Source: Anadara kagoshimensis (Eukaryota; Mollusca; Bivalvia; Arcoida; Arcidae). Taken from it: a stretch of DNA of 64,000 nt. This document shows positions 8,591-62,176 of this stretch, in pieces. The stretch is from contig CM037868.1 of assembly GCA_021292105.1 (NCBI GenBank), forward strand, positions 23,625,908 to 23,689,907, read 5' to 3'. The notes beneath the pieces are model-generated. The model saw only the letters and a program-made list of their open reading frames with translations. It was not told the DNA's origin and did no database searches. The position numbers were made by a program, and so were the translations under genes. Every line of letters starts with the position of its first letter. Position 1 is the stretch's first letter.

Positions 8591-8621
8591 TGAATTGAGA
8601 TGTTGTTTTTTTTATTTGTAG

Positions 8622-8915: not shown

Positions 8916-9069
8916 GTATTCGTCTTATTTTACTTTTTATTTCCTCGTTCTCTTCTCTTTCACTTTAGTTATTGTAATATATTTAATAATAACAAAATCG
9001 GCTAATTGTTGAAGGGGCATTTACAAGCTTTATATTAGTCTCTTAATAAGTAATAAGTAATCTTATTAC

Positions 9070-43172: not shown

Positions 43173-44049
43173 TTAATTTACCCGTGATACTTTCCTGTAC
43201 ATAGTCATTTCTCTTTGGTATTTTAAATTTTCTGACAGATAAAATGACATGAAATATAAACATTTTGATATGAAATTGTACTTTTTAAAAAAAATTACTT
43301 ACATTAAACAAATTGTCTTAGTAGTAACGTCCTGAAATATAAATAATAATTTTATATTCATTTAAAATTTCAAAGTGATATTTATTAATTGGAACAGTTT
43401 TGCCTTAAATACCTAATTTAACTGTAGTTGGTAATATTTTTAAAATTCACCTTTCACTGAACGATCGCAAGAACACAATTGGACTTTTGCTGACGAAATA
43501 GCCATATTTGGATATTTTCATAATTAGATGTAACTTTATCATGGCTGCAGATGAATATGTTATTAAAGCACATAATTACAAAGCAAACTTAACCCGGAAC
43601 CTTTATTTGCCAAAAACTGCTCAGGGCAGTTCAGAAGCGCTCGTACGTAGATACCTCCCCTACCATGATCTCTCATAAACAACCCTTTTCTAAAAACCCG
43701 TTTTATATATGTCTGGTATGAATGTTCGAGAATCTAGCAAAGACAGAAACATCGCTGAAATATCGTTGACATTTAATGTAAATATTATTACTTAAAGTTT
43801 AAGTGAAATGTAGTTTATCTAAATCAGCTTTGTATCTGCGAACAATAAAATATCCAATTTTGGAAATGGCGATATTGAGATTAGATATTTCATTAAGGGA
43901 AATAAATAATTGAATATGTCATCGCTATGGACAAATGACGACAACATCTCAGTACGAGCTTGATGTCCATATTGAGACAGAAAATTAAAGCTCTTGTTTC
44001 TTTTTTAAGTGAAACTTAAGTAATCTGGCAAATAAGTTAAACAAGTAAA

Positions 44050-44319: not shown

Positions 44320-44418
44320 GTTTGCAGCCAACACCATATCTGAAGTAGTAACAACCACTCTTACATTTACACTTGTTTGTCGCCTTGTCACAGTATGCGT
44401 TATTGTAGCAGTTCAATG
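44320..44418 (-). CDS. Gene C EGF-like module exon, last (short, variant)
   Basis: A 99-bp phase 1-1 exon, acceptor attttacag, donor gtaaga. It codes LNCYNNAYCDKATNKCKCKS then GCYYFRYGVGCK. It keeps the NAYCDK..KCKC core but lacks the first two to three cysteines of the standard module (CCGxxCG). Its GC after KS is shifted by one residue. As the last module before the membrane exon it is the most diverged. Confidence 0.7.
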
Positions 44419-44562
44419 CTGTAAAATAGATTTCAACATTTTAAAACATTTTGTCTTCTTTTTAAAAAAATATTTGGACTGGGATTTGTTATAGTCCAGG
44501 TACTTTGGGGAAATATAGAAACATTCCATGAGCTAAACGTTTTGAAAATTGATAGGAATTAT

Positions 44563-44668
44563 TGACGAGTAATCTTCCTTTATCGATGATTAATCTTCTT
44601 TCATCGAGGAGTAATCTTCCTTCATCGATGTTAAATCACCCTTCATAGAGGAATAATCTCCCTTTCTA
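44563..44668. repeat. 21-bp minisatellite (~5 units)
   Basis: The unit is close to gaggagtaatcttccttcatc, repeated about five times with substitutions. Confidence 0.75.
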
Positions 44669-44794
44669 CACCAAATAGAAATATATTTAAGGTGATTGAT
44701 CGATTAATAACTAATTGATCGAATTGCCCTTTTTAAAAAAGTTTCGCTTTTATATCGCGAAATTACAAGCTATATGTGAATAGCAAGACCTTTT

Positions 44795-44940
44795 GTCCTT
44801 TGAGGTGCGCTCAGTACAATGAACAGTATCGGTTTATTAGAGTAGCGAACGTAGATTTAAAATCTCTTCCGAGGAAACCCACCCATGGTTCGAACATGCT
44901 AAGCAAACACCCTACTAAGTTTCCGTAATTATGGTCAAGA
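44795..44940 (-). mobile_element. Decayed SINE fragment
   Basis: 'gtgcgctcagtacaatg' and a degenerate head 'catggttcgaacatgctaag' in the usual order. Confidence 0.45.
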
Positions 44941-45129
44941 TAATAAAATACATTTATAACTTCATCTATTATTAAGATAAACGAGGTTCATTGGTGTGTA
45001 ATCCAGAACCACTGCGACAAATGTTAACATTGCATTGTTGGCTCTGTAACAAATAATTCTCATATCGATTTACACAACAAGTAGAACCTGATGTTTTTGC
45101 ATTTCTGCTTCCGTTGTCACATTGCAATT

Positions 45130-45460
45130 ATAATCAAAAACAAACATGCTAATTCATGCTATGATCCAGAAGCAAAGAAGCAAAGTAAAAACCAGGACAG
45201 GAAGGTGAGGTCGGGTGCTCCGAAAGGGTAAGAAACTTATGTTTAGCTAGGTACACCCGCTACGTGTGTTATCAAAATTGAGTGAAAGGAACTATGGGAC
45301 GTCAAATATATCCAGGGTAAACCTGGATACAGAGACATCAAACTTATCAACAATACTGGTGGCCATAAAACTTTTTGAAGACCTTGACAAAGCGAGGCTT
45401 GCATTATCCTCGGTCAAGAATCCATAAGTAAGCAGCTTGCTTTGTTGTATAAAATCCACG
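45130..45460 (-). mobile_element. Penelope-like 3'-end fragment
   Basis: From 'taatcaaaaacaaacatgct' through the tail into the RT end, drifted. It abuts, with a gap of about 35 bp, the donor of a gene C exon. Confidence 0.65.
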
Positions 45461-45493
45461 TAGTTTTGTGCACAAATGATGTATCAATGTTAC

Positions 45494-45607
45494 CAGAACA
45501 TCCGTTACTGCTGTATGGGTTTCCTCTATAACAAACGTTGCATCTACATTTATCGGTATTTTTGTCGCAGTAAGAGTTTTTCTTACACCTTCCACAGCAA
45601 GGGTTTT
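45494..45607 (-). CDS. Gene C EGF-like module exon
   Basis: A 114-bp phase 1-1 exon, acceptor ttttgcag, donor gtaaca. It codes NPCCGRCKKNSYCDKNTDKC followed by RCNVCYRGNPYSSNGCS. It has eight cysteines in the CC..C....C.....C.C..C........C order. One residue is missing between cysteines 2 and 3 and there is a small insertion before the last. Confidence 0.8.
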
Positions 45608-45889
45608 CTGCAAAAATAAACCAAAGTAATTATTTGAAAATGTACCTCAGTGGATTCTATATTACCACCATCTGGCACCATATGTAGTTTGTATAGAAAC
45701 AACATTTGTACTTGTTTCTTAATACTTAAACTAGGATCACGTCCACATTTCCATTGTTTCATTTCACTTTCACGATATTGCTTCCAATAGTAATGCGGGT
45801 TATATCGATTTTTATGGAAATTTGCTGCAATTAACAAGCGCTGAAAATTAAAGTCCATTAATACCTTTACGGGTCGTATATCGGAACTT

Positions 45890-46150
45890 AAACTAGAACT
45901 GTCTCTTGAGAGACAAATACCCCCACCCCAAGCATATAGAGTGTTCCTGCGACCTTGACATTTCAGATATGACCTTGGTTCAAGGTCATGACACACCTTT
46001 GAACCATGAAGATTGTTCATATGAAGTTTCATGAGAGTCCTCCAAAGCATTGATGAGATAAAGCCTGGACACGATTTTACATGGACAGACGGACAGACAG
46101 ACATGGTGATTCCAATTTACCCCCCTCAAACTTGTTTGCGGGGGTATAAT
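45890..46150 (-). repeat. 'GGTCAAGGTC' interspersed repeat, copy 3
   Basis: Reverse copy including 'gaccttgacatttcag', 'gaccttggttcaaggtcatg', and ending in 'gacggacagacagacatg', the (TGTC)n end. Confidence 0.7.
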
Positions 46151-46204
46151 AAAATCCATTTTCCATGTTAATAAATACCGCATACTTAGTCAGAACGTTC
46201 AAAA

Positions 46205-46530
46205 TAACATATTATACCAGCACTAAAAGACCGTTTTGGAATACCTTATCTTTAGTGCTGGGATAAAAGTTGTGAACTCGATTTTTTTAAGAGGTCGAAA
46301 ATTACCAAAGAACCAAAGTATATTTAACCATAGATCAGAATTTAAGAAGCAGTAAATTGCATATTATACCAGTGTTTTAATTTTACATCACTAGACGACC
46401 GTTTCAGAATACAACTTCTCATCAGCAGTGATAAGACCAAAAATATGAAACTAAAATTATTTTAAGATGTTGAAAAAATACTCAAAGGACCAATATATAT
46501 TTTACTAAATTTTGCTAAGGAAATGCTTTG
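46205..46530 (-). repeat. 'CGAAACGGCCGTCTA' repeats, two partial copies
   Basis: Two reverse copies follow one another: 46205-46320 (ttataccagcactaaaagac) and 46370-46530 (ttataccagtgttttaattt, actagacgaccgtttcagaa). Confidence 0.65.
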
Positions 46531-46539
46531 CTTAAGACA

Positions 46540-47105
46540 ATTTAGTCAATAGTATTTTATGACAATACAAAAGAATCCTGACACAATTCCTGAATTCCGT
46601 TTGTGTTCAACTTTTTATCAAAATAAGCGATTAATTGCATAAACGTTTAACCTTATACCTGCTTGATAAGCATGAGATATATAGGTTTATGTCCTTTGCC
46701 TGGAAGTAAAATCGAACGTACTGTGTCACTCGCTTACACCAGCGAATGGTGTTACATTCCTCAAAGTTTTGCAAAATATGTTAGTCTGCAAACTAAACGT
46801 TTTGCAGACACGATATTTAATATTGATCCCGTAGCAAGCCGATGTACAGCCTTTAAGATTAAGGCTTTTTGAAACCGTTACTCAACGAAAAGATAGCATT
46901 TGGTCTCTATTAATTTATTCGACAAACCCTAGAATGATCTTGTTGGCCTTACGTTGTACCAACATGATATCTGATGTTTGTATTCACCACGAATTCTTTG
47001 GCCTAAAGCAACCACCACGCAACGATTTTACATTTTTATAATAGAGAATGTGTTCTGGTGTGTCTAATTCTCAAGTACTATTGTTGTCAAAATGTCGTCA
47101 GTTTT
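46540..47105. other. Gene C intron, nothing recognised
   Basis: No further EGF-like exon was found. The plus-strand ORF at 46663-46872 shows no recognisable features. Confidence 0.35.
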
Positions 47106-47109
47106 AATT

Positions 47110-47360
47110 TTACAGCATTAGACGGGTTTGTAATATCCTCGTAGAAAAAATCTACCAGCAGAGATACCGGCTCAGTGGTTATATCACAGATTGTACCAGT
47201 TTTACTTTTAAAGCACTAGACGGTCATTTCGAAAAACAATTCCAAAATTGTGGAACCGAACTGTTTTTTCAGGATCTTGAAAAGTTACTCAAAGGACCAA
47301 AATACAAAATATATTTTACCAAATTCAGGATACTTAGGATAATGGAGTATACATAGGTTT
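47110..47360 (-). repeat. 'CGAAACGGCCGTCTA' repeat, diverged copy
   Basis: 'actagacggtcatttcgaaa', 'ctcaaaggaccaaaatac' and 'tattttaccaaattcagg' in the family order. Confidence 0.6.
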
Positions 47361-47779
47361 TGAGGAAATTCAGATTTTAACTAGCAGTAAATTTAGACTA
47401 ATTTTTTCTGACAATAATACACAATTATTAACTAATGAGTTAAATTCACGACAAAGATGCTCTATCATCGTATTAAATGACTCGAATTTAGTTGATAGAA
47501 AATCAGAGAATTGTCGTGTTTTAAACATTCTAAACATATTTGAATTCTGTGTCGTTTAAGAAAATGATATATAAATTTAACTAGTTTTAAACTTAGCTTG
47601 CGATAACAATTGACGTATTAATTTAATTTGATAGAGATAAGAGTTTATATTTCATACAAAACTATTTTGCAATATGAAGACCATTTTGTACCTTTTTTAC
47701 TTTCATGTAGTTACTATTGGTTATAGCATCTATTTGGACAAGATTAATTAATAATATTAATTAAAAAATAAGATTTTTA

Positions 47780-47910
47780 TCGAATCAAAAACAAACATAC
47801 TTATACATGCCCTGAACACAATCCAGAAGCAAAGTAAAAACTTTGGAACTGACAAGGCAGGTTAGACACGTGAACTTCCATCAGGGAAGTGAGGTCTGGT
47901 GCTCCGAAAA
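47780..47910 (-). mobile_element. Penelope-like tail fragment
   Basis: 'cgaatcaaaaacaaacatac' to 'gggaagtgaggtctggtgct'. Confidence 0.65.
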
Positions 47911-48094
47911 AAAAATTAGTTTTATGTAATTGAAAGCAACATAAACATCCACAGGTAAAGCGTTAAGACACTTGGCAGAATTTAATATCAGAAATGAAGG
48001 AAAAGATTTTACCTCATAACAGAAAAGGATAGAAAGCCAATCTATGAAAAACAAAACGAATTATGACAAAAACCAGACAATAAAAATTAACACA

Positions 48095-48275
48095 AAAATT
48101 GTAAGCCGGTAAGATAGATAATGATGTAAGCTTACGGCAGAAAAAAATACCGAGAACAATAAAGAAAACATGGATTACATGAATGATATACTTTTAATGT
48201 CTTATTTTTACTGCCTCATTAGGGGTCACCATTCTAACATTTTATTTACATGTGCAGCCATTATGACCAAGAATA
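48095..48275 (-). pseudogene. Relic of a gene C exon (3' half) with flanking intron
   Basis: 48200-48275 resembles the 3' half of the exon at 48447 ('aggggtcaccattctaacat', 'catgtgcagccattatgacc') but the NAYCD half is absent. Flanking intron is duplicated too: 'attgtaagccggtaagatag' near 48100 and 'attgtaagccggtaggatag' near 48284. It is a decayed partial exon duplication. Confidence 0.6.
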
Positions 48276-48446
48276 ACACCAAAATTGTAAGCCGGTAGGA
48301 TAGATAATGATTTAAGCAGAAAAAGAGATAACCAGAACAACATGTGGAATTTAAGGAATATTGAAAATAAATTGCAACCTTGTGGTCGAGCAAAACATGA
48401 TGTATTAATGCGTTCTCGGAGGAATAATATGCTTTGAATGTCTTAC

Positions 48447-48557
48447 TTTTACAGCCTCGTTTAGGGTCACCATAGTAACATTTTTTACATCTGCAGCCAT
48501 TAGTAGCCCTATCACAATAAGCATTTGATCCACAATTTACTCCACAGCAAGGTATTC
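48447..48557 (-). CDS. Gene C EGF-like module exon
   Basis: A 111-bp phase 1-1 exon, acceptor tcttgtag, donor gtaaga. It codes IPCCGVNCGSNAYCDRATNG followed by CRCKKCYYGDPKRGCK. Eight cysteines in the standard order. The flanking intron shares sequence with the relic at about 48.2 kb. Confidence 0.88.
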
Positions 48558-49169
48558 CTACAAGACAGTAGTAATATTGTTCTTACAAAGATGCATTTTG
48601 GTGACAGATGTACATTCTTATGCAATGGAGTATTTGAATGACGGTGTATATATTTATCTCAGAAATCATTTGTTCGCTTAAGAAAACAACTATCGACAAG
48701 TTTAAGTATACATAACGTTTCCTGTAGGATTGGCAAAACAATGACTTGACACATTGCATGAAATTAATAAAATACAAGTTGTGGATACAAACTAGTAATG
48801 CACTATCAAATACAACGATATAACGGGGTTTGATGTAAGATCTGCTATGTAAATGAAAGGATAAAAAAGACAACTACGTAAGTAGAATGAAAAAATATGG
48901 ACTTCAGATTCAGACAAATTATGAAAAATTCCATTTGAAATCTGTCCAGAGCCTACAAAGTTACAAGGTCATGGGCGTTTAGGTTTTAGTGACATATATA
49001 GACCGTGCGCACAATACATCCCTTTAGACGGGTAGCATGTCAATTGCAAAGCTAAAAAAACTCTACAGAAGCCTTTTTATTCCGCAATGTGAAACTATTT
49101 CTCTGGCTCTATATTTAGCAGTTAACTAGCAGTATATATTCTATACTCGATAACGATTCATTTGCTTAC

Positions 49170-49286
49170 TTTTACATAATTTTCTAGGATCACCAAAGTG
49201 GCATTTGTTGCATCGACATATGCCACCGAATACACGTTTGTCACAATAAGCATTTGAGCCACATTTCTTTCCACAGCAAGGTACTT
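49170..49286 (-). CDS. Gene C EGF-like module exon
   Basis: A 117-bp phase 1-1 exon, acceptor gtgttgtag, donor gtaagc. It codes VPCCGKKCGSNAYCDKRVFG followed by GICRCNKCHFGDPRKLCK. Eight cysteines, with two extra residues between the fourth and fifth. Confidence 0.88.
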
Positions 49287-49959
49287 CTACAACACAAAAG
49301 TACCAATCAACAGTAATGAAAGTCAGGAACAAGTACTTGTATATGAATATGCATTAGTTTTGTTGATTCGACTAAAATATAACCCAAAATAAAGAAGGAA
49401 ATGTATGCAATCAGAATAGAAAAGGGAGAAACAACTGAAAGACATAAACCAATCACACGACACAATACAAGTTAATGATAAAATAACCAACATAAAGAAA
49501 AAATGCAAACACATTTTGGAATAACTGATCTTTAATTTCGGTCGTAGATATAGCATATAATCTCTCTACAGTAAGATAACAGAAAAAAGACAGATTGGTG
49601 GGACAAAGAAATAACTAGATTTGTTGCTTGAATAACCGGAACAAAGACAGAAATTACAATAAAGACAAATTATAAATTTTTGCAATATAGAGTAGAACAA
49701 TAGAGTTATACGGTTTAATGTCCTGCGAAAAGTGAGGTGGTGTAGAAAACCGGAGTCGCCGGAGAAAGAAACTACCTTCAAGCGAACTGACAAAATTTCT
49801 AATGCTAGAATATGTGGGGATATGAACCCTATTGGTGAGATGCAGTGTGATCCGAGGTACAATCTTTTGATTGTTTTGCCATACAGTCACCAAGAAAGAA
49901 ATAGATATAATTTTAGAAGCTCCACAATGCATGAAGCTAGAAACAGTTATCTCCCTTAC

Positions 49960-50070
49960 TTTTGCATCCTCGATTTGCGTTACCAGAGTAACAGGATTTA
50001 CATTTACATTGGCTAGTACGTTTATCGCAATAAGCATTTGCTCCACATTTTACTCCACAACAGGCTATTT
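49960..50070 (-). CDS. Gene C EGF-like module exon
   Basis: A 111-bp phase 1-1 exon, acceptor tttacag, donor gtaagg. It codes IACCGVKCGANAYCDKRTSQ followed by CKCKSCYSGNANRGCK. Eight cysteines in the standard order. Confidence 0.9.
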
Positions 50071-50379
50071 CTGTAAAATTTGTAAATGATATCAAAATTA
50101 AACTTTGGAGGCAAATCCGTACAATACCTTTATCAAATAATTGCAATTTTCTTACACAAATAGTTATTGTTAAATAATCACATTCGATCGAATTTTAAAA
50201 GTCTTGCCAATTTTAACACATCACATGTATGATCTTTTTTCTAGACATTTAATAGAAACACAAATAGATTGAATCATGTTCATAAAATAAAGACTATTGG
50301 GTATTGCTAATATATATGGTAAACAACATGATATAGAAAGAAAAAAATATCTTGGCAAGTTTAATGTATTAATATACAT

Positions 50380-50510
50380 TTATTGCCTTTGAGTGAGGGA
50401 GATATGAACACTTGTTTACCCGCAACAAGCCTAGGACTATATGACTTGTTAGGGTCAACAAATGTTCATATCCCCCTCACTCAAAGGCAATAAATTGTTT
50501 ATTTTACCGA
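50380..50510. mobile_element. 'GAGTGAGGGAGAT' palindromic element, copy 2
   Basis: 'attgcctttgagtgagggag' and 'ccctcactcaaaggcaataa' are exact inverted ends, with 'atatgaaca'/'tgttcatat' inside. Hairpin-forming, about 120 bp. Confidence 0.8.
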
Positions 50511-50814
50511 ATTGAAATATCGCCATGGCGATAAAAAGTAAATTTTGATTTGTACTCGTTTAAAACGATCACAAACCTCTCTCCAAGACATTTTTCTCCT
50601 ATCGGAACGAACTCGTTGAAGGTAAACGTTAGAATGTCAAAACTGAATTTCAAACCGATGACGTCATATCATTGTGACGTTACGTTGTTCCAAAGGGGTT
50701 GGATATGATGTTTTCAGAGGGATACACGATGTTTTCTCCACCCTGATTACATGATCCAACCATCCAATCAAATAACAGATCTAATTGTATTTTTCTAATG
50801 AGGTATAATAATAC

Positions 50815-51060
50815 TACATATTTACAATCTTAATATATTTGCTTCAATCGATATCGACTATACTTTGCAACCTCATGGGGACTTTTCTCCACGCGCTGAC
50901 GTGATGACATCAAATGTCAAATGCTTTTATTGATTGACAGGAACTGATCCATTTTTGAGGTGCACAGCATCGCATTCCAAAATTGTTTTCAAATTATCAT
51001 GAAAAATGTGAGACGACAATAAAATTATTTTTATTATTGAAGTTATTGGATAATCTTTGT
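50815..51060 (+). mobile_element. Repeat related to 28620-28850
   Basis: Same block order as the minus-strand copy at 28.6-28.85 kb ('ctccacgcgctgacgtgatg', 'ttgattgacagga', 'aaaatgtgagacga'). Non-coding. Confidence 0.65.
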
Positions 51061-51493
51061 ATTGACCTAAGGCAATATTATTCATATCATCACATCAATT
51101 ATATTTTCAAGAGACACGTAGGTCATTTGTAAACACAGAAATTCGGCCTAGTCGTGCATTTGTAGAATGTAAAAATGCAAAAGTAGTTATGTTATCAGTT
51201 TACAAAACATGTACTTATAATACAATTAAGAGACATATGCGGGTAAGCTGTTAGATAAAACGTGTTATTTTATTTGGATATTAAGTTCTGATTGCTTAGA
51301 GGTGTTAATCCTCTTACTTCTACATTCATGATAGAAAGTCAGTATACCCCTGCCGATGACACTAGATTCATATTACTAATTATATCATCAAGAGACTCGA
51401 GAATAAGTTCTAAGAAACTAGTTGTAGTATTAATATATAGCAAAAGATTATTGATGTCATTAATATCCTTATTATAGTGTTAATCCCGCTTAC

Positions 51494-51604
51494 TTCTACA
51501 TCCACGTCTTGGGTCACCAGTGTGACATTTATTACATCTGCATTTATTAGACCCTCTGTCACAGTAAGCGTTTGACCCACACTTTACTCCACAACATGCT
51601 AGTT
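51494..51604 (-). CDS. Gene C EGF-like module exon
   Basis: A 111-bp phase 1-1 exon, acceptor cttttacag, donor gtaagc. It codes LACCGVKCGSNAYCDRGSNK followed by CRCNKCHTGDPRRGCR. Eight cysteines, with a more basic end than its neighbours. Confidence 0.9.
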
Positions 51605-52019
51605 CTGTAAAAGTTAGTAAACAAGAACACTCATATATTGTGACACAAAGAAAACTTAGTTTTCAAAACTAATATCTGAATTTATTATCAATTATGACTG
51701 AATTTTTTTTTACACAATACAAATATTTTATTCACTAGTTTAGTCTGACCATTTAAATTACAATGCTCCTTTTTTGTCAGCTGTAAACTGCGTTCCTATT
51801 ATTCTTAAGTGGTTTGTTTATTTGTCTGTTGTTTTTCAGTAAACATTGCAGAATTTAAACGTTTTAATCTTTTTATAATAACGTTTAATCAATACTGCTA
51901 CATACGTCTTGTTGCCAAGTATCATATTGAAAATAAGATAATATTCATCATGGTTCATACTGTTAAGCTCAGAAACGTTTTTTTTTTTCATTTGAAAGCA
52001 CACATATTCTATCTTGAAT

Positions 52020-52335
52020 AATCAAAAACATACACGCTAATCAATGTACCTATCACACTTTCAAAAAAGTAAAAAAAAATAAAAAAATAAACTTTGACAC
52101 GACCAAATTAAGTGATACACGTGAAATTCTTCTAGGGTAGCTAGACACGGTACTCAGGTGGAAGGGCAAGATCCCCTGCTCAGAGAGAGGTACCCGCCAA
52201 GTGTGAAAGTTTTATTGAAAATGAAATTAATATCGAACTAAGGGACGTCAAATATATCCTATGGTAATTTTGGATACAGAGACATCGTACGTATCAGCAA
52301 TATTGTGATGACGCCCATAAAATTGTGTTGAGGTG
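52020..52335 (-). mobile_element. Penelope-like 3'-end fragment, old
   Basis: 'aatcaaaaacatacacgcta' to the RT-end block ('gggacgtcaaatatatcc', 'tattgtgatgacgcccataa'), strongly drifted. It ends about 30 bp from a gene C exon's donor. Confidence 0.6.
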
Positions 52336-52362
52336 ATACTAGAATCAAGCGTATGATCTTAC

Positions 52363-52473
52363 TCTTACATCCGAGTTTAGGGTTACCAGAGTGACAAGAT
52401 TTACATTTACAACCACCAGTACGTTTGTCACAATAAGCGTTGGCACCACATTTTACTCCACAACATGACATTT
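52363..52473 (-). CDS. Gene C EGF-like module exon
   Basis: A 111-bp phase 1-1 exon, acceptor cctttacag, donor gtaaga. It codes MSCCGVKCGANAYCDKRTGG followed by CKCKSCHSGNPKLGCK. Eight cysteines. It is close to the module consensus. Confidence 0.9.
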
Positions 52474-52599
52474 CTGTAAAGGGAAATATGAAACATGTCT
52501 ATTTGACTTATAGAAACTAGTGAACTAATAACAGATAGTATATAGCAACAAACATATCTGAGAAACAAGCAGGACAATTTAGCAGGGCATTGTTACAAG

Positions 52600-52870
52600 T
52601 CATCTTATCAAAACAATCTCGTCAAACCATGTCCAAATCAAAATTCTAAAGCAAACAAAAACAAAAATGAATTAATTGCAATTTAATTAGTCACATGATT
52701 TACTACCAGGGAATAGTGACAGGGTGCTCTGGAAATATAAGCACCTCCTGTTAAGCTGCTAGCGACACCCGCAATCGAAATTAAAAATTATCGATCCAAA
52801 TGCAAAGTTTATCTTTTATAACTGGCAAATTAAGTTGAACAAATGAACTTCCATCAGTGATTCAATACAA
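52600..52870 (-). mobile_element. Penelope-like tail fragments, very old
   Basis: 'ccatgtccaaatcaaaattc', 'agggaatagtgacagggtgc' and 'cacctcctgttaagctgcta' in tail order, then a second partial at 52790-52870. Confidence 0.45.
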
Positions 52871-52939
52871 GCTTGAATGTTCTTAACTGCTAAGAAATTG
52901 AAAATCGAACTTGCAACTACCCTATAAAATTTAACCACA

Positions 52940-53265
52940 TAGTGTTGCTATTTCGTTGTTTTGTAGTAGATCTCATTTTTTTCTAAATGTGTTATGTTTT
53001 TTCTTATTTATTTTGCCTTTTTCCATTTTTAAAAAATTCGTAGTATCGCTGTTTTGTAGTAGGTATCATTTTTGCTATTTTTTACGGTTTTTTTTTCTTT
53101 TTTGCATTATTGATTTAACCTTTTTTTCCATGTTTTATTAATTTTATCATATCGCTATTTGTTGTTTTGTAGTAGCTATCATTTCTTCTATTTCTTTTTA
53201 CGTTTTTTTTTTTTTCATTTTTTGCATTATTCATATAACTTTTTTCAATATTATAAATTTTGTTT
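52940..53265 (+). repeat. T-rich tandem repeat, ~3 units of ~95-113 bp
   Basis: 'gttttgtagtag' followed by a T-rich block recurs at 52958, 53051 and 53164. The ORF at 52956-53141 is a by-product. Confidence 0.7.
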
Positions 53266-53290
53266 TATATTAAGAAGTGGGCCATCTTAC

Positions 53291-53401
53291 TATTGCATCC
53301 TCGAACAGGGTTACCAGTGAAACACTTGTTACATTTACAACCACCTGAACGTTTGTCACAATATGCATTGGCCCCGCACTTTACTCCGCAGCATGGAATT
53401 T
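53291..53401 (-). CDS. Gene C EGF-like module exon
   Basis: A 111-bp phase 1-1 exon, acceptor cttcacag, donor gtaaga. It codes IPCCGVKCGANAYCDKRSGG followed by CKCNKCFTGNPVRGCN. Eight cysteines. Confidence 0.9.
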
Positions 53402-53539
53402 CTGTGAAGAAAATGTAATATATATATAATTTTGTAATTTGAACTTTTTGTGAAACTATTCACTAGTAAAAACAACAGTCAAATTATAGCATAAGTCGGT
53501 TTCAAAAAACCTGACGTGAATTCTTCACATTATTTCTAT

Positions 53540-53605
53540 CGACAAAAACATTTGACCAACGCAATACGCCGCAAACTGGAATTTCTGTGAAGAAGATGTA
53601 ATACA
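53540..53605 (-). pseudogene. Relic of a gene C exon 5' end
   Basis: 'gcaatacgccgcaaactgga' followed by 'atttctgtgaagaagatgta' matches the acceptor and first codons of the exon at 53291 with its upstream intron (offset about 190 bp), but the rest of the module is missing. A truncated exon duplication. Confidence 0.5.
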
Positions 53606-53799
53606 AAGAATTTTGCAGAAGTCAAAGAATAGTCACATGTTTTGAGTTTGTATTTTTAAATGACGTGAACTTTGTATTTATCAAATTATTATCACTTCAT
53701 CTGATACAATTAGCGATAATATAATATTTTATACAGTACATTTACATTTTAACACAGAAACAATGCATTGTTTTGTCAGATAAACATTGTAAATAAATT

Positions 53800-54320
53800 T
53801 TGGTCTAGGCACTTCTAATGAGAAATCGTATTCTAAAACGGCAGTCTGGTGCTGCTGTAAAATTAACACGTGTATAATGTGCGATATGTAATTTAAACCT
53901 TTGTTGGTGAACGTTCCTTGAGGATATCACAAACTCAGTAGGCAATACTAATATACTATTGTCTAGATTTGCTGCAAGTTAAAATCTTAAAAGGTATACT
54001 CCCCTCATGCAAAGAATATCTTGGCTAAATTTTGTGAAATATATTTTGGCCCTTTGGATATTTTTTTCAATTCCTTGATTAAATTTTGGTTTTACAATTT
54101 TGGTCTACTGATGGAAAATTGCATTCCGAAATGGCCGTGTAGTATTGTAAAATTAACACTGATATAATATGTAATTTTCATGGATTTTGTAAAATAAATT
54201 TTTGTCTTTCTAATTTCTCATTCCAATATCTTAAAATACTTGAATATCCACAAATTTGTTCAAAACATTTCTTATCAGAAATTATATTCCGAAACGGCCG
54301 CCTAATGCAAGCCTTATGAT
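53800..54320 (+). repeat. 'CGAAACGGCCGTCTA' repeats, about three partial copies
   Basis: Blocks 'cctaaaacggcagtctggtg'-like at 53830, 'ggcaatactaatatactatt' and 'tccgaaatggccgtg' at 54110-54150, and 'attatattccgaaacggccg' at 54281, in family order. Confidence 0.65.
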
Positions 54321-54735
54321 CAATTACCGCAACGCGATTTATGGCTAAATATTTTAATTTTTAATTGATTGCTGTTCTTGTCGTCTGGCGTTTCAGCTGA
54401 TCACATTCATATTCCATATTTCTATTTGAAATACAAATGTATATCAATTTAATTATTGTCCATTCAAAATGGGCTTCCTGTCAACAAGTTGTAAAATATT
54501 TAAGTCTTTTATAAAAATAGAAAAAAATTGTTTTAACATTATTTAACTTTAAAATAGACAAACAGTTGTGTCTTAATTTGAAACCGTTTGCATATTGTTA
54601 AATATTTTTATGTCAAACTGTCAATAGAAACTTACTGACAAAAGAACTCGATTAAAAATCACTTGAAACGTTTCTAATTTGCTTATTATCTTTCATCACC
54701 TGAGTATTTGTTATGAAATGGATGACGCTGATATT

Positions 54736-54838
54736 TGACTCTCGTGTAGGGTTACAAGAAAAACGTTCGTGTATTTACAACCGTCAGTATGTTTATCACA
54801 AAAAGAATTAGCATCAGCAAGATAGCAACATGAGATTT
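54736..54838 (-). pseudogene. Decayed gene C EGF-like exon
   Basis: The acceptor side is recognisable and the start reads ISCCYLADANSFCDKHTDGC on the minus strand, the pattern of IPCCGVKCGANAYCDK. The second half no longer keeps the CKC..C spacing and no GT donor is found where the others have it. It is a dead module between two working ones. Confidence 0.7.
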
Positions 54839-55180
54839 CTGTCAATAAAAGACAACACAATGATAATTCAAAGTCACATTTTGCTTTGTTGATGGATAAC
54901 GCGGTTAATGTGACAAGAAAGACATATCAAACCATAATCGGATGATTACTTGCATGTATAAATTCATGATCACCGTTTGAAATTGAAATTACCGCGTTTG
55001 GCTATGCTTTGTTATACGGCGATGACATTTCATGTATAAGTCGAGCGTCTAAGAACGAGGCAGACAGAGTGTTTGCATTGTCACTTTGTACCTATCATCT
55101 TTGGGCCTCATATTCGTTAAGATTTCCCTTTTGTTTCAAGATTTTGTTCTTGTATTATACTTTGACCTTTATAATCTTAC

Positions 55181-55291
55181 TTGAACAGCCTTGTGATGGG
55201 TTGCCAGAGTAACAAGATTTACATTTACAACCACCTGTACGTTTGTCACAATAAGCATTGGCACCACATTTTACTCCACAACATGGAATTT
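55181..55291 (-). CDS. Gene C EGF-like module exon
   Basis: A 111-bp phase 1-1 exon, acceptor ttttttacag, donor gtaaga. It codes IPCCGVKCGANAYCDKRTGG followed by CKCKSCYSGNPSQGCS. Eight cysteines. It equals the module consensus almost everywhere. Confidence 0.92.
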
Positions 55292-55684
55292 CTGTAAAAA
55301 AAATAATAAAAAACATTTTGTAAAATAAGCGATGAAAAATATATTTTTTGTGATTTAAATAAATCTCTCATGTGTCGAATTGATTTTTTATAATCATACT
55401 CTTAAATGTACTGCAAGATATTACTTTCATTCTAAATTGAGCACCAATGATCTACTTGTTTAAAGTTTAAGAACATTCTGCAGATGCATATTTTATTTGC
55501 TATGAGGTCGTTTTTTATAAAACTCGTGGATTTAAGAACATTTTATTCCAATAAAACAAGTATTTTGTATTCATAATTAGCTATGATCCGTGTCCATGAA
55601 AGTGAGTGTCTCACAACCTTTTTCACCTCCCACATATTTATTGTAAATTATTAATTGCGCTTGATATTGCGACTGTAGACTTAC

Positions 55685-55795
55685 TGTTACACCCTTGTGA
55701 AGGATTTCCTGAGAAACATTTGTTACATTTACAACCTCCAGTAAGTTTGTCACAATATGCATTAGCCCCACATTTCACGCCGCAACACGGTATTT
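55685..55795 (-). CDS. Gene C EGF-like module exon
   Basis: A 111-bp phase 1-1 exon, acceptor atttacag, donor gtaagt. It codes IPCCGVKCGANAYCDKLTGG followed by CKCNKCFSGNPSQGCN. Eight cysteines. The plus-strand ORF over it (55606-56049) is a shadow. Confidence 0.92.
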
Positions 55796-56217
55796 CTGTA
55801 AATATAAACCTCACATTACAAATGTTTATTTCCGATTATACAGCAGTCATTCAAGCATTCATTATGGTCACTGATAAACAAATCGGAACATGCAAATTAC
55901 ACAAGAGTGTTCACTGCAGCTTTTTAGCGTTTTTAGCATCGGGAAATAACGCGATAGTTTTTTACCTTTCAACCAATGAATTGGAAGGGAATTTCGGTTG
56001 TAATCTACAATTTACATACATTCTCTGTTTTAGACTCATGGGCACTTAAAAAGGGCAATGTTTATGCAATGAGAATGTTTTTACTTTATAATCATTATAT
56101 TTTTACAATAAAAAAGAAGACTTTGAAAGCAGATATTGAAACCACTACTTGAGATCACAGTGGTTCTTTTTGGTGAGGGGTTCTTGATAAAATCTGGAAT
56201 AGCTCTATCAGACTTAC

Positions 56218-56337
56218 TTTCACATCCTTTTGAAGCATCACCAGAGTAACATGTGTTACATTTACATTGGCCATTAGGTAAAGCACCTTTATCACAATAA
56301 GCATTGGCTCCACATTTTACTCCACAACAAGGTATCC
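56218..56337 (-). CDS. Gene C EGF-like module exon (recent duplicate a)
   Basis: A 120-bp phase 1-1 exon, acceptor ttgtttag, donor gtaagt. It codes IPCCGVKCGANAYCDKGALP followed by NGQCKCNTCYSGDASKGCES. It is almost identical to the exon at 56832, including the adjoining intron 'cttgataaaatctggaatag', so this is a recent duplication 614 bp apart. It carries three extra residues (ALPN-type loop) relative to the consensus. Confidence 0.9.
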
Positions 56338-56364
56338 CTAAACAAAATAATTAAAGTAGTTTCA

Positions 56365-56425
56365 GTGAATCGATTGATCAATTGATTGATTGATTGAATG
56401 AATGAATGAATGAATGAATGAGATT
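56365..56425. repeat. (GATT)n/(GAAT)n microsatellite
   Basis: 'gattgattgattgaatgaat' type run, between the two duplicate exons and next to a SINE fragment. Confidence 0.85.
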
Positions 56426-56560
56426 TTACTTCACAGTCAAGAATATTTCACTTATATCGAGAAATCACCAACTAAAAGTGAAATCTCAGAAATTTTGAAA
56501 ATCTTTGCACTGCGTAATGTGCACGGAGTGTTCTGTAGCGTGTCATGCTTATCGACATAC
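56425..56560 (-). mobile_element. SINE end fragment
   Basis: 'gtcaagaatatttcacttat' and a drifted 'atcgagaaatcaccaact' block. The head is missing. Confidence 0.6.
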
Positions 56561-56831
56561 AATTTATCAGTTTTTAATAATTGTATATAGAGGGTTTTAA
56601 CTGCCACTAACATGCGCCTGAGTCAAGACATCCTATGAAGGATTTTACTCAATAATAGGAAGAAGATTACATTTACACAGGTAAATTTTACCCAATTTTA
56701 AAGGAAATTAAAGGAATTCTGGAGAGTTTTTGAAGTAAACTCTGGAATTCTTTTGTTATCCGTTGAGGGCGGGGAGTAGGGTGGGGTTTGGATTTTCTTG
56801 ATAAAATCTGGAATAGCTCTATAAGACTTAC

Positions 56832-56951
56832 TTTTACATCCTTTTGAAGCATCACCAGAGTAACAAGTGTTACATTTACATTGGCCATTAGGTAAAGCAC
56901 CTTTATCACAATAAGCATTGGCTCCACATTTAACGCCACAGCAAGGTATCC
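56832..56951 (-). CDS. Gene C EGF-like module exon (recent duplicate b)
   Basis: A 120-bp phase 1-1 exon, acceptor ttgtttag, donor gtaagt. It codes IPCCGVKCGANAYCDKGALP followed by NGQCKCNTCYSGDASKGCKS. Partner of 56218-56337. Eight cysteines. Confidence 0.9.
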
Positions 56952-57069
56952 CTAAACAAAATTTTCATATGTAAATATATTTTAAAAAAACAACAGACAT
57001 TTACAATGTATCTATGATATGAAAGGGTTTACTTCAAACCATTTCTTAATTATAAGTCAGGATAATTGA

Positions 57070-57420
57070 TAGAATGACGGATCGCCGACCACGCCCACAA
57101 CGTTCCGACAAATGGCCGGAATGCTCGATTTACACGCAAAAAGAATTAAAACTCGGAATGACGGCACTAATATTAGTTGCCGTGACGCCATGGCGACCAG
57201 TGTCGGAACATAAGTTCAATCGACGAATCGCCGGCCATACCCACAATGTTTCGACAATGCCCGTCAAACTTCGATTTCACACAAAATGAATGATAACTCG
57301 GCCTGAATTGTGCCATTTAATGACGTCACGGACACTAGAACGTCATTTGTTGCCATGACGCCGCTTTGTTACCGTGATGGCGGCCAGTGTCGGAACATAA
57401 AAAGCATGGCCGGCGATACG
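57070..57420 (+). repeat. GC-rich tandem repeat, ~2.3 units
   Basis: 'gatcgccgaccacgcccaca' (57081) and 'aatcgccggccatacccaca' (57228) start similar units. 'ccagtgtcggaacataa' occurs at about 57197 and 57385. It is much richer in GC and CpG than the surroundings. The ORFs in it are not convincing genes. Confidence 0.6.
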
Positions 57421-57424
57421 TCAA

Positions 57425-57860
57425 TTGGTTTACATCCCAGTCAAGAATATTTCACTTATATCAAGACGTCACCAGTTACATATGAAAGGACAGAAAATTG
57501 CAATGGGTTATGTGCATGGCTGGTTCCTTAATGGTCACGCCTGCCGTGACACGGCTTCACTGACAGTTCTTGTTTTCACATGTTAAAATATTTTGAACTT
57601 TTATTAATTTGTCCGTTAGATAAAACAAGCAAAAACATGAATGATTTCACAAGAGGGCAGAACAATTTGCTTATGCCTGTGTGGCGACATCGGTTTTTTA
57701 AAAGGACTTTTCTGAAGGACCCAGTAACTTTCATTTCTAAGTGCTTGAGGAAAGAACTGTCATTATCTATTTAAAGTCTTGCTCTGACCCTGTCGGGGTT
57801 CGAGCTCATGACCTCAAACATACGACACAAGCACTCTATTAACTGAGCTAAGTCAGGGTA
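57425..57860 (-). mobile_element. tRNA-derived SINE, copy with an internal insertion
   Basis: The minus-strand head (tagctcagttaatagagtgc, box B gagctcgaaccccgac) and the end block (tatcaagacgtcaccagt) are both present, but about 120 bp of unrelated sequence lies in the middle near 57565-57690. Confidence 0.7.
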
Positions 57861-57874
57861 AAAGTATTTTGCAG

Positions 57875-58010
57875 TTAATTCTGCCTATAAAAGCCACCCA
57901 AAAACAGTAAAATGGCCCATATATAGATGAATAAAGAGCATTGCATTTGGTATGAATTATACTGGCCTTTATATAGAGGTGGTTTTAAGGCAGATTTGAC
58001 TGTATTTTGT
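57875..58010. mobile_element. 'AAAGGCCACC' palindromic element, copy 3
   Basis: 'gcctataaaagccacccaaa' at the left and 'ctggcctttatatagaggtgg'-type right end with 'ttgactgta'. Confidence 0.65.
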
Positions 58011-58144
58011 TAAGCTCGTTGTTTTCAATGTTAAGCTTTTCTGGTAAATTGCTATATTTCGTTATATTACCAGTACATCTGTGTGCGGACTGTACCTTCC
58101 TCTAAACCGAACATTCAAATTTTGAAAAAAATATGTATTTCTGT

Positions 58145-58211
58145 ATTGCCAATGACTTACTTTTACATCCCTGTACTGGGTTTCCGTTGTAACAGTTATT
58201 ACATTTACACT
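58145..58211 (-). pseudogene. Half-exon duplicate of gene C module, with its donor
   Basis: The donor and the last ~50 bp of the exon at 58236 are repeated 75 bp further along the gene ('ttgccaatgacttacttttac' type block at 58146 and 58221). The duplicate has the C.C..C..G part and a GTAAGT donor but no acceptor of its own. Confidence 0.7.
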
Positions 58212-58235
58212 ATTGTCGTATTGCCAATGACTTAC

Positions 58236-58346
58236 TTTTACATCCCTGTACGGGGTCCCCATTGTAACAGTTATTACATTTACACTGGCCACTGTTTTTG
58301 TCACAGGCTGCATTGGCTCCGCATTTTACACCACAACATTTAATGG
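58236..58346 (-). CDS. Gene C EGF-like module exon
   Basis: A 111-bp phase 1-1 exon, acceptor cttttag, donor gtaagt. It codes IKCCGVKCGANAACDKNSGQ followed by CKCNNCYNGDPVQGCK. Eight cysteines. Immediately downstream in gene direction is a 75-bp repeat of its own 3' half plus donor (58145-58211). Confidence 0.88.
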
Positions 58347-59530
58347 CTAAAAGAAAGGAAAATATACATTTCACAAATATTTAAATGCGTTCTTTATTTG
58401 TTCGCAAATTATTGCAATTAAGATCACGTCTATATAAGGCCATCTTGCCTTGGTTTCACAATTTGTTTTTATTTAACTTTCCTAAACTTAAATTTAGCAA
58501 ACTTTGGTAATCTCCTTTTGACCTACTGGTACATATTTTTGACAAATATAAATGCAAAAGTTTTATTCCATAAGCGACAAAGTATTCGAAGCTCGGCTGT
58601 CGAATTGTGTGTGGCTGAAAATGCCAAACGATAAATATAGCATCTGTCGTAAAGCCGTCGAGATATATATTATATATTAAGAGTCATTCTCTGTAAGGAC
58701 CAATTAAACTCCTCTGGAAATCGCATGTCACAGATTTTGAAAATATTTTACCTAAACAATGGCTACATATAAGAAACCAAAAAAAATTATCAAACTAAGA
58801 ATTTTTTATATTGTTTACATGGTAACCAACCACTAAGAGGCCAATCTCTGGATTTTCGGCCAAATTTGGGTGCGTATCAAATATGCCGCTAGAATATGCC
58901 ACTTATGATGGTTGTCTTCAATATTTTGTTTTTATTCGGAACTTTGATTGTTATCCTTATCTTTTTCAAGTCAAAACTGTATGATTTTACAGGTTTTCAT
59001 TTATTTTGAGTCAATTTTATCTCAAAAAATGCTCTAAAATTGACCTAAACTAGCTGAACTTTGAGATTGAATATTTTGAAAACGCGGGCACTGGAGTAGT
59101 ATCACAAACATTTAAGTTATAGGGGAAAGTGGGTTCAACAAAATATCAAAAAATTAGAGTGGTACTTTTTGATTAAAGAAAATAAATCAGTTTCAAAGTT
59201 ACGGAAATAGCCCTAGCAGGGTCCCTTTTTAAGAAAGAATTATCTCCCCTTAGTAAACAATATGGTATTTATTTTCTCTTTTTGATATGTTTTATCTCCT
59301 AAGTGCCAAATATTTAATCAATTAGTTATTTTTAAAAAATATGTACATTAACTTATATATATTTTTATTAAAATCCTGGCAATAAAGCACAAAAATTATA
59401 TTTGTAATGAACTATTTTATTAAGCACTTGAAAAAATATTTGGATTTTACATGTTTAGAAATAGGTCCATTCCATCTAAATATAAGCCACAAGTCTCAAG
59501 CAGGTCATTCTTGTGAACAATAGTTAATAA
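58347..59530 (-). other. Gene C intron; relative of the 16.1 kb MITE at its right part
   Basis: 58452-58560 ('ggtttcacaatttg', 'cctaaacttaaatttagcaa') is a diverged relative of one half of the 16087-16318 element. The rest shows no recognised feature. Confidence 0.4.
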
Positions 59531-59531
59531 T

Positions 59532-59532
<1 letters not shown>

Positions 59533-59562
<30 letters not shown>
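59533..59562. repeat. Poly-C tract, 30 bp
   Basis: An uninterrupted run of C directly abuts the 72-bp minisatellite. Runs of this kind are error-prone in assemblies, so copy number beside it should be treated with care. Confidence 0.9.
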
Positions 59563-59899
59563 AGAGAAGCATTTCTTACATTTACACTGATTGTTTGTTA
59601 GAGACTTACCGTCACATTTCACTTTGGGATTTCCAGAGAAGCATTTCTTACATTGACACTGACTGGTTGTTACAGACTTACCGTCACATTTCACTTTGGG
59701 ATTTCCAGAGAAGCATTTCTTACATTGACACTGACTGGTTGTTACAGACTTACCATCACATTTCACTTTGGGGTTTCCAGAGAAGCATTTCTTACATTGA
59801 CACTGACTGGTTGTTAGAGACTTACCGTCACATTTCACTTTAGGATTTCCGGAGAAGCATTTCTTACATTGACACTGATTGGTTGTTAGAGAAACTTAC
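59561..59899 (-). repeat. 72-bp minisatellite made of gene C half-exons, each with a splice donor
   Basis: Units start ('ccagagaagcatttctta') at 59561, 59633, 59705, 59777 and 59849, exactly 72 bp apart, then 74 bp to the exon at 59900-60007, which is their source. On the minus strand each unit reads CQCKKCFSGNPKVKCDGKS plus VTTSQ, i.e. the second half of the EGF-like module followed by the exon's own donor and its first intron bases (GTAAGTC; donors at 59604, 59676, 59748, 59820). The units are open among themselves. Relative to the source exon they are shifted by two extra bases, so reading straight on from the exon meets TAA (GKFL then stop). No good acceptor precedes a unit. Confidence 0.85.
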
Positions 59900-60007
59900 C
59901 ATCACATTTCACTTTGGGATTTCCAGCGAAGCATTTCTTACATTGACACTGATTGGTTGCTTCGTTACAATCTGCGTTTACGCCACAAGGACCACCACAT
60001 GGGATTT
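59900..60007 (-). CDS. Gene C EGF-like module exon (seven-cysteine variant)
   Basis: A 108-bp phase 1-1 exon, acceptor tttgttacag, donor gtaagt. It codes IPCGGPCGVNADCNEATNQC followed by QCKKCFAGNPKVKCDG. Compared with the eight-cysteine modules, the second Cys of the opening CC pair is Gly, while the additional Cys in KKCFAG is kept. It therefore looks intermediate between the six-cysteine module at 61288 and the rest. It is the source of the 72-bp array beside it. Confidence 0.85.
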
Positions 60008-60029
60008 CTGTAACAAAGAAAACATAACA

Positions 60030-60235
60030 ATGTATGTAAACGTATTTAATTTCGCGTGTATTTCTTTTCAAGGTTTAGGTTATTTAGACATATCCGTGTA
60101 GTTAAATTTTCGCGTTTTTGTAACATAATAAGTATATAATTTTCGCTTTGTACTCATTTTCGCGGAAAACAAACGACCGCGAAATAAGCGAAAATTAGTA
60201 CACCGCGAAAATTAATTCGTTTATAGTATACTGTA
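60030..60235. mobile_element. 'TACTGTAAACG' MITE, copy 2
   Basis: 'tgtaaacgtatttaatttcg' to 'aattcgtttatagtatactg', with the same inner 'ttttcgct...aacaaacgaccgc...gcgaaaatt' order as copy 1. Confidence 0.75.
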
Positions 60236-60678
60236 CATCTGGAGCTAGATTTTCGCTGTAATTCCAGAGAGTAACAAAGCACGCAAAAAATAAAACAGAT
60301 CCATGGATATTTACGTCTACATGTGGCATGTAGGCCAATTTGTAGACCGAACATTTGGTATATATTACTTAATGTTTACAGTACAGGTCTGTCGAAAATT
60401 TAACACCAAGGTTACGAATTGGCGCAGTATAGACAGTTCATCTCGTTCTTTTGTTAATTATACCTCGTCAGCTTTTCGGATACTAGCTATCCATATCCCG
60501 GCTACTCGGCAGCCGAAGCCGACTCCTTTTTAGTTAGCTCAGTGTTAAACTTTCGACAGTCACGTACTGTTCAGTGCTTACTGATCGCCTAAAAGGAAGT
60601 CTGCTCAGAAAACTTGGTTAAACTGATCATTAACTTCAGTTGCTTTTCGTATGACGCCATGTGCGTGAATGATAAATT

Positions 60679-60735
60679 ATAAAACCCCGCAGGTTTACAC
60701 TTGCAGTGTCCGGTGTAACACATTGCGTAAAATCG
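60679..60735 (-). pseudogene. Relic of the first gene C EGF exon
   Basis: The minus strand reads AMCYTGHCKCKPAGFYN where the working exon at 61288 reads AVCYIAQCKCKPGFVGN. No acceptor or donor is present and the front is missing. It adjoins a long inverted-repeat element, which may have split or carried it. Confidence 0.6.
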
Positions 60736-60756
60736 ACCATGGTGGTAACAAGATCA

Positions 60757-61247
60757 AAATTTACTGTCAGACCCTGTCTGTTTGTGACAGTGAATTACGT
60801 TTTTTTTTCCATCTGAGAAAATTAAATAAATCTGAATAAAAATTGATAATTATCCCTTACTTGTACCTACTCGTAACAGGAAATCTGTATGCGCATTCTT
60901 GATTAGCGTAAAATATTTCTACACAGAGCAAAACGTTGGCGCCATCGGGATTTAACATGTTAAAAAAAAAAAGGCACGTGGCGGATCCTGTTGCGCATAT
61001 GACGTGAAACATCACTAAAGACATCACTTCCGGTGTAAACATCGCCATTTTCCCCATGTAAAATCCCCGTAGTGCCAACATTTTCCTTTCTACAAAAATG
61101 CTTTATGACAATCGCGGATGCGCATACAGATTTTCAGTTACGACTAGCCACAAGTGAGTGAATAATATCAATTTTTATTCAGATTTATTTGATTTCTGTG
61201 GAAAAAGCATAACTTCACTGTCACAAACAGACCGGCTCTGACAGTAG
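60757..61247. mobile_element. Foldback-type element with ~145-bp inverted arms
   Basis: 60760-60905 and 61115-61245 are inverted copies: 'ctgtcagaccctgtctgttt'/'aaacagaccggctctgacag', 'ataaatctgaataaaaattg'/'caatttttattcagatttat', 'gaaatctgtatgcgca'/'tgcgcatacagattttc'. Length is about 490 bp. The centre holds an ORF by chance (60857-61081). It lies in a gene C intron between an exon and the relic of that exon. Confidence 0.8.
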
Positions 61248-61287
61248 TTTACCATCACATTGTTCGATCTAGTTATAAGTAACTCAC

Positions 61288-61407
61288 TTTTACATGCGAC
61301 ATTGGGATTACCAACAAACCCAGGTTTACACTTGCACTGTGCAATGTAACAGACTGCGTTCACTCCACAGCGTCCATAGCAGGGGTCGTACCCATAACCA
61401 TATCCAT
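61288..61407 (-). CDS. Gene C EGF-like module exon, six-cysteine (first seen)
   Basis: A 120-bp phase 1-1 exon, acceptor ttggttgtag, donor gtgagt. It codes GYGYGYDPCYGRCGVNAVCY followed by IAQCKCKPGFVGNPNVACK. This is a canonical EGF-like module: C...C.....C....C.C..GF.G......C, with the GF.GNP found in many EGF repeats. It lacks the two additional cysteines of the later modules. It starts with a short Gly-Tyr run. It is the furthest 5' exon that I could find; a signal-peptide exon is expected to the right. Confidence 0.85.
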
Positions 61408-62130: not shown

Positions 62131-62176
62131 AACAATGTTAAATAGCAAAAGCAATACAGTCAAAACATAAAATGTC

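Follow-up and report, generated by a model that had tools for sequence, protein, structure and literature searches.

Arrays of epidermal growth factor (EGF)-like modules are common building blocks of extracellular fibres. Among the molluscs they occur in threads and in byssal proteins (PMC10336842, PMC7971044, PMC6244088, PMC13348336), and the mechanical behaviour of the EGF domain has been called largely unknown (PMC10336842). In the mussel Perna viridis, Pvfp-2 carries 23 EGF-like repeats, and long EGF-like repeats with tyrosine-containing terminal peptides are described as common in Mytilus fp-2 (PMC7971044); the EGF-like domains of marine adhesives, those of mussels included, are described with six conserved cysteines (PMC13348336). 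The scallop protein Sbp9 is a cysteine-rich chain of tandem EGF-like (EGFL) repeats with six-cysteine spacing and a PCGGPC motif, to which calcium-binding domains (CBDs) are added (PMC6244088). Octovafibrin, the egg tether of an octopus, is a load-bearing tandem array with six conserved cysteines per module, C-type lectins at both ends and no PROSITE call of a calcium-binding EGF; in simulations its minor sheet, which lacks a disulfide, is the first element to unfold (PMC10336842). A covalent bond from one EGF module to the next has a precedent in the eight-cysteine modules of integrin beta, where the usual pairing is 1-5, 2-4, 3-6, 7-8 and a single inter-module disulfide, between last and first cysteines, joins EGF1 and EGF2 at a hinge (PMC12383024). 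Here, we examine a stretch of 64,000 nucleotides from the bivalve Anadara kagoshimensis (assembly GCA_021292105.1, contig CM037868.1, positions 23,625,908 to 23,689,907; hereafter the window, numbered from its first nucleotide) and a gene within it made of 15 EGF-like modules, most of which bear two additional cysteines. Judging from the sequence, we consider it fairly probable that the gene encodes a secreted structural rod in which a disulfide runs from the second extra cysteine of each module to the first extra cysteine of the next, so that neighbouring modules are stapled together.

The module exons lie on the minus strand between 44320 and 61407. Each encodes one module, measures 99-120 bp, is in phase 1 at both ends and is bordered by AG and GT, and this holds for all 15; the exon series proposed in a sequence-only reading of the window is thereby confirmed. 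We number the six EGF cysteines C1 to C6 and call the two others x1, the residue directly after C1, and x2, a cysteine three residues after C5 that replaces the glycine usual at this place in an EGF. Both are present in 12 of the 15 modules. Module 1 (61288..61407) is a canonical six-cysteine EGF-like module with a tyrosine-rich N-terminus (GYGYGYDPCYGRC...) and weak EGF-family matches, and module 2 (59900..60007), which contains PCGGPC, has seven cysteines, with x2 present and x1 absent; the translations thus bear out what the sequence-only reading had said of these two exons. Eight cysteines are found in each of modules 3 to 14 (58236..58346, 56832..56951, 56218..56337, 55685..55795, 55181..55291, 53291..53401, 52363..52473, 51494..51604, 49960..50070, 49170..49286, 48447..48557 and 45494..45607). 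That reading needs amending at one point: module 15 (44320..44418) is degenerate, having lost C1 and x1 and carrying its extra cysteine four rather than three residues after C5. The window holds 12 occurrences of the eight-cysteine pattern, and 30 first-order Markov simulations of the window gave none.

The arrangement of these cysteines becomes more telling when the paralogues are considered. A search of the genome gave at least 123 matches with one module (E-value, E, up to 1) and at least 126 with module 1 (E up to 10). From these we compiled a table of 85 modules in six genes, all on one contig (C12): the window gene (W) and five others, A, B1, C, D and E, a gene being a run of modules on one strand whose start and end, for the paralogues, are presumptive (D has a stop). 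We read all 26 detected modules of A, 9 of 14 in B1, all 13 of C, all six of E and 16 of D, of which 14 lie in a single exon and one was found by reading; near-copies of W and B1, read in part, were left out of the counts. The 79 junctions are consecutive among the modules read, and unread or undetected modules may lie between them. If presence and absence of x1 and x2 are written in that order as 1 and 0, W runs 00, 01, twelve times 11, and ends without x1 and with a cysteine one place late at x2; A runs 00, 01, 23 times 11, then 10; B1 runs 01, seven times 11, then x1 with a cysteine one place late; C runs 01, then 12 times 11; D runs 00, 01, then 14 times 11; and E runs 01, then five times 11. 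In all six genes read, the run therefore begins either with an x2-only module or with a six-cysteine module followed by an x2-only one.

Within single modules x1 and x2 disagree in 8 of 85 cases (W2, W15, A2, A26, B1_1, C1, D2 and E1), all at the ends of runs as read: the six x2-only starters, the last detected module of gene A, which has x1 only, and window module 15. When x2 of one module is instead compared with x1 of the next, only one junction in 79 disagrees, that from W14 to W15. None of 20,000 shuffles of module order within genes did as well as the observed order, nor did any of 50,000, a result that held for all genes, without B1, and for W, A and D only, the three genes whose six-cysteine first module is in hand. 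Counting a cysteine only at exactly C5+3 leaves both totals, 8 and 1, unchanged. In gene D, moreover, an x2-only module was predicted beforehand between the six-cysteine module 1 and the long exon, and it was found at about 34273958 (KPCKYKPNADCINGRCTCKPCFYGNPYTGC). Because the within-module mismatches number eight and are confined to run ends, against a single mismatch among the junctions, the extra bond probably runs from one module to the next and not between two cysteines of the same module.

In EGF tandems, C5+3 sits in the C-terminal hairpin, beside the aromatic residue that packs against the next module, whose N-terminal end holds C1+1. Pairing of x2 in module n with x1 in module n+1 would create a disulfide daisy chain along the molecule, and such a staple, beside the backbone, would lock the minor hairpin together with the four-residue linker (all 13 junctions within the long exon of gene D have a linker of exactly four residues from C6 to C1). 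Calcium-binding EGF modules (cbEGF) carry the consensus D/N-x-D/N-E/Q before C1; by inspection it does not occur in the window linkers (e.g. KKIP, KRIP, NKIP), nor was a Pfam EGF_CA match listed. Since the calcium-binding residues are absent from these linkers, the staple may serve as a substitute for calcium, which gives cbEGF arrays their stiffness. It should also stiffen the chain, because the minor sheet that unfolds first in the octovafibrin simulations, for lack of a disulfide, is the very element that x2 would lock. The outcome would be an unusually stiff protein fibre. We lean, with somewhat less assurance than for the window gene itself, towards reading the genes as a family of extracellular rods: repeated disulfides across the junctions would tie almost every EGF module covalently to the module on either side, take the place of cbEGF calcium and seal the weak minor hairpin under load. 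Our searches of the open-access PMC literature brought up no description of an EGF array with repeated inter-module staples; the integrin bond is a one-off, whereas the bond proposed here would recur at almost every junction, and the extra cysteines are placed elsewhere. If this is true, a stapled natural array would directly test the view that the minor sheet yields first for want of a disulfide, give disulfide-rich fibres a new topology and supply a principle for the design of tough protein materials. More generally, paralogous repeat genes can, through the order of their cysteines, hint at bond partners without a structure.

A complete frame can be assembled around the modules. Beyond the window edge, at 65777-65723 in window coordinates, there is a candidate signal-peptide exon with a phase-1 donor that reads MLGLYLFSVVCVLSLGQS and has the motif TATAAATA upstream of its ATG; it is one of several candidates from a scan, picked for its place, its donor and its join, which with the exon of module 1 gives ...GQS YGYGYGYDPCYGRC... 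At the other end, a putative terminal coding exon (43318..43331, minus strand), with an acceptor and an in-frame stop, completes an arginine and adds RYY, so that exon 15 joined at 43331 reads RRYY and stop. We infer from the sequence that the exons are spliced as modelled. The predicted protein has 584 residues, from the signal peptide through 15 modules to the stop, with no other domain between and no membrane anchor seen in the model. Assuming cleavage after residue 18, the mature part of 566 residues contains 115 cysteines (about 20%), 102 lysines and arginines and 25 aspartates and glutamates, at an isoelectric point of about 9.1. Tyrosines mark both ends of the model (YGYGYGYD at the N-terminus, RRYY at the C-terminus).

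In architecture, the nearest described proteins are the byssal EGF proteins of bivalves and the octovafibrin of the octopus. The plan of mussel fp-2, a secreted chain of EGF repeats with tyrosine-bearing terminal peptides, is also that of the window gene model; the difference lies in the modules, which have eight cysteines here and six conserved ones there, and no eight-cysteine module appears in the available parts of the fp-2 accounts (PMC7971044, PMC13348336). With Sbp9 the model shares the cysteine-rich tandem repeats and, in module 2, the PCGGPC motif; it has EGF-like modules only, unlike the combination of EGFL and CBD in that protein. Like octovafibrin, in which PROSITE likewise calls no calcium-binding EGF, it would be a load-bearing tandem EGF array of a mollusc; octovafibrin differs in its six-cysteine modules and its terminal lectins. 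Because the tyrosine-bearing ends, the basic charge and the architecture resemble those of byssal fp-2-like proteins, and because module 2 holds PCGGPC, the likeliest role of this basic, cysteine-rich protein is as part of a fibre or an adhesive outside the cell.

Is the module truly an EGF? In 14 of the 15 window modules six cysteines follow the EGF order, and C4 and C5 form the CxC (module 15 has no C1). The joined window protein has no Pfam match at E up to 10, and no match of this protein, its modules or its paralogues reaches a curated cut-off, in agreement with the earlier failure to recognise a named family. Below threshold, window module 1 matches EGF_3 (E 0.0043), the array of gene D matches EGF_TEN (E 9.8e-12) and the first module of gene A matches EGF_Teneurin (E 4.8e-5). 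Profile comparison with seven canonical EGFs of the same genome is weak (E 0.0024 at a probability of 12%; E 0.0042 at 8%). The predicted structure of module 7 has a confidence (pLDDT, predicted local distance difference test) of 85.9; its best match in the PDB, a weak one, is a chain with an EGF domain, and a second aligner gave none. A PDB profile search found no eight-cysteine homologue of known structure, and its best matches, Toxoplasma AMA4 (E 0.062) and NELL1 (E 0.02), align without the two extra cysteines. The same genome also shows the unmodified form, in six-cysteine relatives from contigs C2 and C17 (PCNGVKCGAHTFC...CYCVSGYQG; PCNGVKC...CVSGYQG); neither x1 nor x2 occurs in the seven C2 modules (two of them alike) and the one C17 module read.

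Other EGF modules with additional cysteines are differently built. Integrin EGFs have their extra cysteine between core C3 and C4, an interval in which none of the 15 window modules has one. Laminin-type EGFs likewise have eight cysteines, with a fourth disulfide loop after C6; the extra cysteines of the window modules, at C1+1 and C5+3, both lie inside the C1-C6 span, and Pfam listed no match to laminin EGF. Among the papers listed by our searches of the open-access PMC literature, we recognised none on eight-cysteine EGF modules of this layout.

Several observations weigh against a stapled rod of EGF-like modules. The assignment to the EGF-like superfamily relies on cysteine order and on profile matches below threshold. 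The junction between W14 and W15 breaks the rule that links x2 of one module to x1 of the next; module D_2 lacks one core cysteine (it has six in all), a loss that the rule does not predict; and B1_1 and A_19 bear a further cysteine directly after C2 (KCC). With 115 cysteines, an odd number under the assumed cleavage after residue 18, at least one is not paired within the chain. The genes have a common ancestry and come from one genome, so that the six starters are not fully independent, and modules of 30-odd residues resolve history poorly. Finally, the table extends upstream only to the first read modules of B1, C and E, and 5 of the 14 B1 modules are unread.

The alternatives to the inter-module staple overlap, and the confidence that we place in each is not meant to be added to that in the others. 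The one that survives best, though we regard it as unlikely, concerns only the cause of the stagger and can therefore coexist with others: the stagger would be history, an ancestral growth from six to seven to eight cysteines whose order the paralogues inherited. Six genes on one contig share this order, and some shared descent is certain. Yet the starters are no closer to each other than to interior modules (non-cysteine identity is 34% among starters, 37% between them and interior modules of other genes, 40% between them and the interior of their own gene, and 40% between interior modules of different genes), the residue at their x1 place varies (G, Y, S, T, K, K), and gene A closes, as far as its modules were detected, on one with x1 and no x2, the reverse of a starter and not to be expected from growth at one end. 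With x2-only starters in six genes and 34% set against 37% identity, the suggestion of the sequence-only reading that the 5' modules preserve the steps of the change becomes doubtful. Because the starters resemble each other no more than they resemble interior modules, differ at x1 and have a mirror image at the end of gene A, they can be read as upkeep of the pairing; their presence at the start of the chain looks like a functional requirement and not a relic.

That the two extra cysteines imply an additional disulfide had also been suggested from the sequence, and an extra bond is indeed probable; it is its placement within the module that the contrast of 8 in 85 with 1 in 79 disfavours. A fourth disulfide between x1 and x2 of the same module would suit their joint presence in 12 of the 15 window modules, and their agreement, in presence or absence, in 77 of the 85, but the eight exceptions stand at run ends, and seven of them, all but window module 15, are oriented as inter-module pairing predicts. 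The x2-only starters kept in six genes would each hold a lone cysteine, and the places of the two extra cysteines in the EGF fold, set out above, are at the N-terminal end (C1+1) and in the C-terminal hairpin (C5+3). We judge this arrangement rather improbable. To the same degree improbable, in our estimate, is that the extra cysteines are reactive thiols, or stickers, that cross-link different chains, as proposed for scallop Sbp9. Free stickers would have no reason to obey a junction rule with one exception in 79. Free thiols and redox-driven assembly have nonetheless been reported for Sbp9 constructs (PMC6244088, PMC13348336), which keeps an intermolecular role alive, notably for the cysteine left over in the window chain: an odd total means that at least one cysteine of the mature part is free or intermolecular. 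Where single cysteines are concerned, such a role is compatible with inter-module staples, and a subset, e.g. the cysteine of the last module, could still act in this way. That the CC and CxCxxC clusters bind metal in the manner of a metallothionein, as the roughly 20% cysteine and the CxC and CxxC spacings might suggest, is very improbable, for the order and spacing of six of the eight cysteines are those of an EGF, the family has sub-threshold matches to EGF profiles, the modelled protein is secreted, and the staggered ends would be left unexplained.

Judged by their substitutions, the window modules are under purifying selection. Among the eight modules with 111-bp exons, the median ratio of nonsynonymous to synonymous divergence (dN/dS) is 0.21 (23 of 28 pairs with usable dS), and wherever at least one member of a pair has a cysteine it is kept in the other, in 224 of 224 comparisons, 67 of them through a silent change between TGT and TGC. 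A second copy of the gene lies 0.46 Mb away, at 24.127-24.151 Mb on contig C12; over 400 codons from 11 of the 15 modules the two differ by 12 silent and 9 amino-acid changes (dN 0.010, dS 0.057). Many of the best EGF matches in the genome likewise form pairs of equal score that share a contig, usually at a distance of about 0.3-2 Mb and in one case of about 6 Mb; the copies B1 and B2 are 0.19 Mb apart, and the window gene with its second copy forms another such pair. These paired loci are either recent segmental duplications or haplotypes left unpurged in the assembly.

The local history of the array is also legible. Modules 4 and 5 are a recent duplicate pair (96% over 168 bp), and they are the exception to the tendency of between-module similarity to end near the exon edges. 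Between modules 7 and 8, at about 54.84-54.74 kb (54740..54838, approximate bounds, minus strand), is the relic of a dead module that keeps its acceptor and has lost its donor, frame and cysteines. At two neighbouring exons, tandem copies of the 3' part and its splice donor extend into the intron (72 bp x 5.5 at 59561-59959, 75 bp x 1.9 at 58143-58286). The first of these arrays holds four near-perfect half-modules within one open frame that is out of frame with the exon. We considered it as a coding extension of exon 2 with extra donors and rejected this; because read-through past the exon runs straight into a stop and the frame differs, we take it as an intronic minisatellite.

Elsewhere among the paralogues, gene D packs 14 eight-cysteine modules (23% cysteine) into one exon, as against one module per exon in the window gene, which would be the outcome of either intron loss or amplification within an exon; its last module keeps x2, and its C-terminal tail adds one cysteine (KSKKSC, stop), an ending that favours the staple. 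Modules with a cysteine directly after C2 include the first module read of gene B.

Flanks of 120 kb and 138 kb on the two sides held no convincing second gene; what turned up there was limited to partial profile matches, all weak (E 0.048 or worse), and two cysteine patterns of low complexity. A 45-bp minisatellite (62176-64000, 40.6 copies to the window edge) lies inside intron 1 of the gene model; on the plus strand it has an open frame that repeats every 15 residues (SDRVVLTIPPLAAQ...). At 5733-6662 (plus strand) there is a reverse-transcriptase fragment (RVT_1, E 1.4e-5, below cut-off), and an open frame at 8594-8968 (plus strand) has a weak match to Golgin A7/ERF4 (E 0.0043, below cut-off) and is possibly one exon of such a gene.

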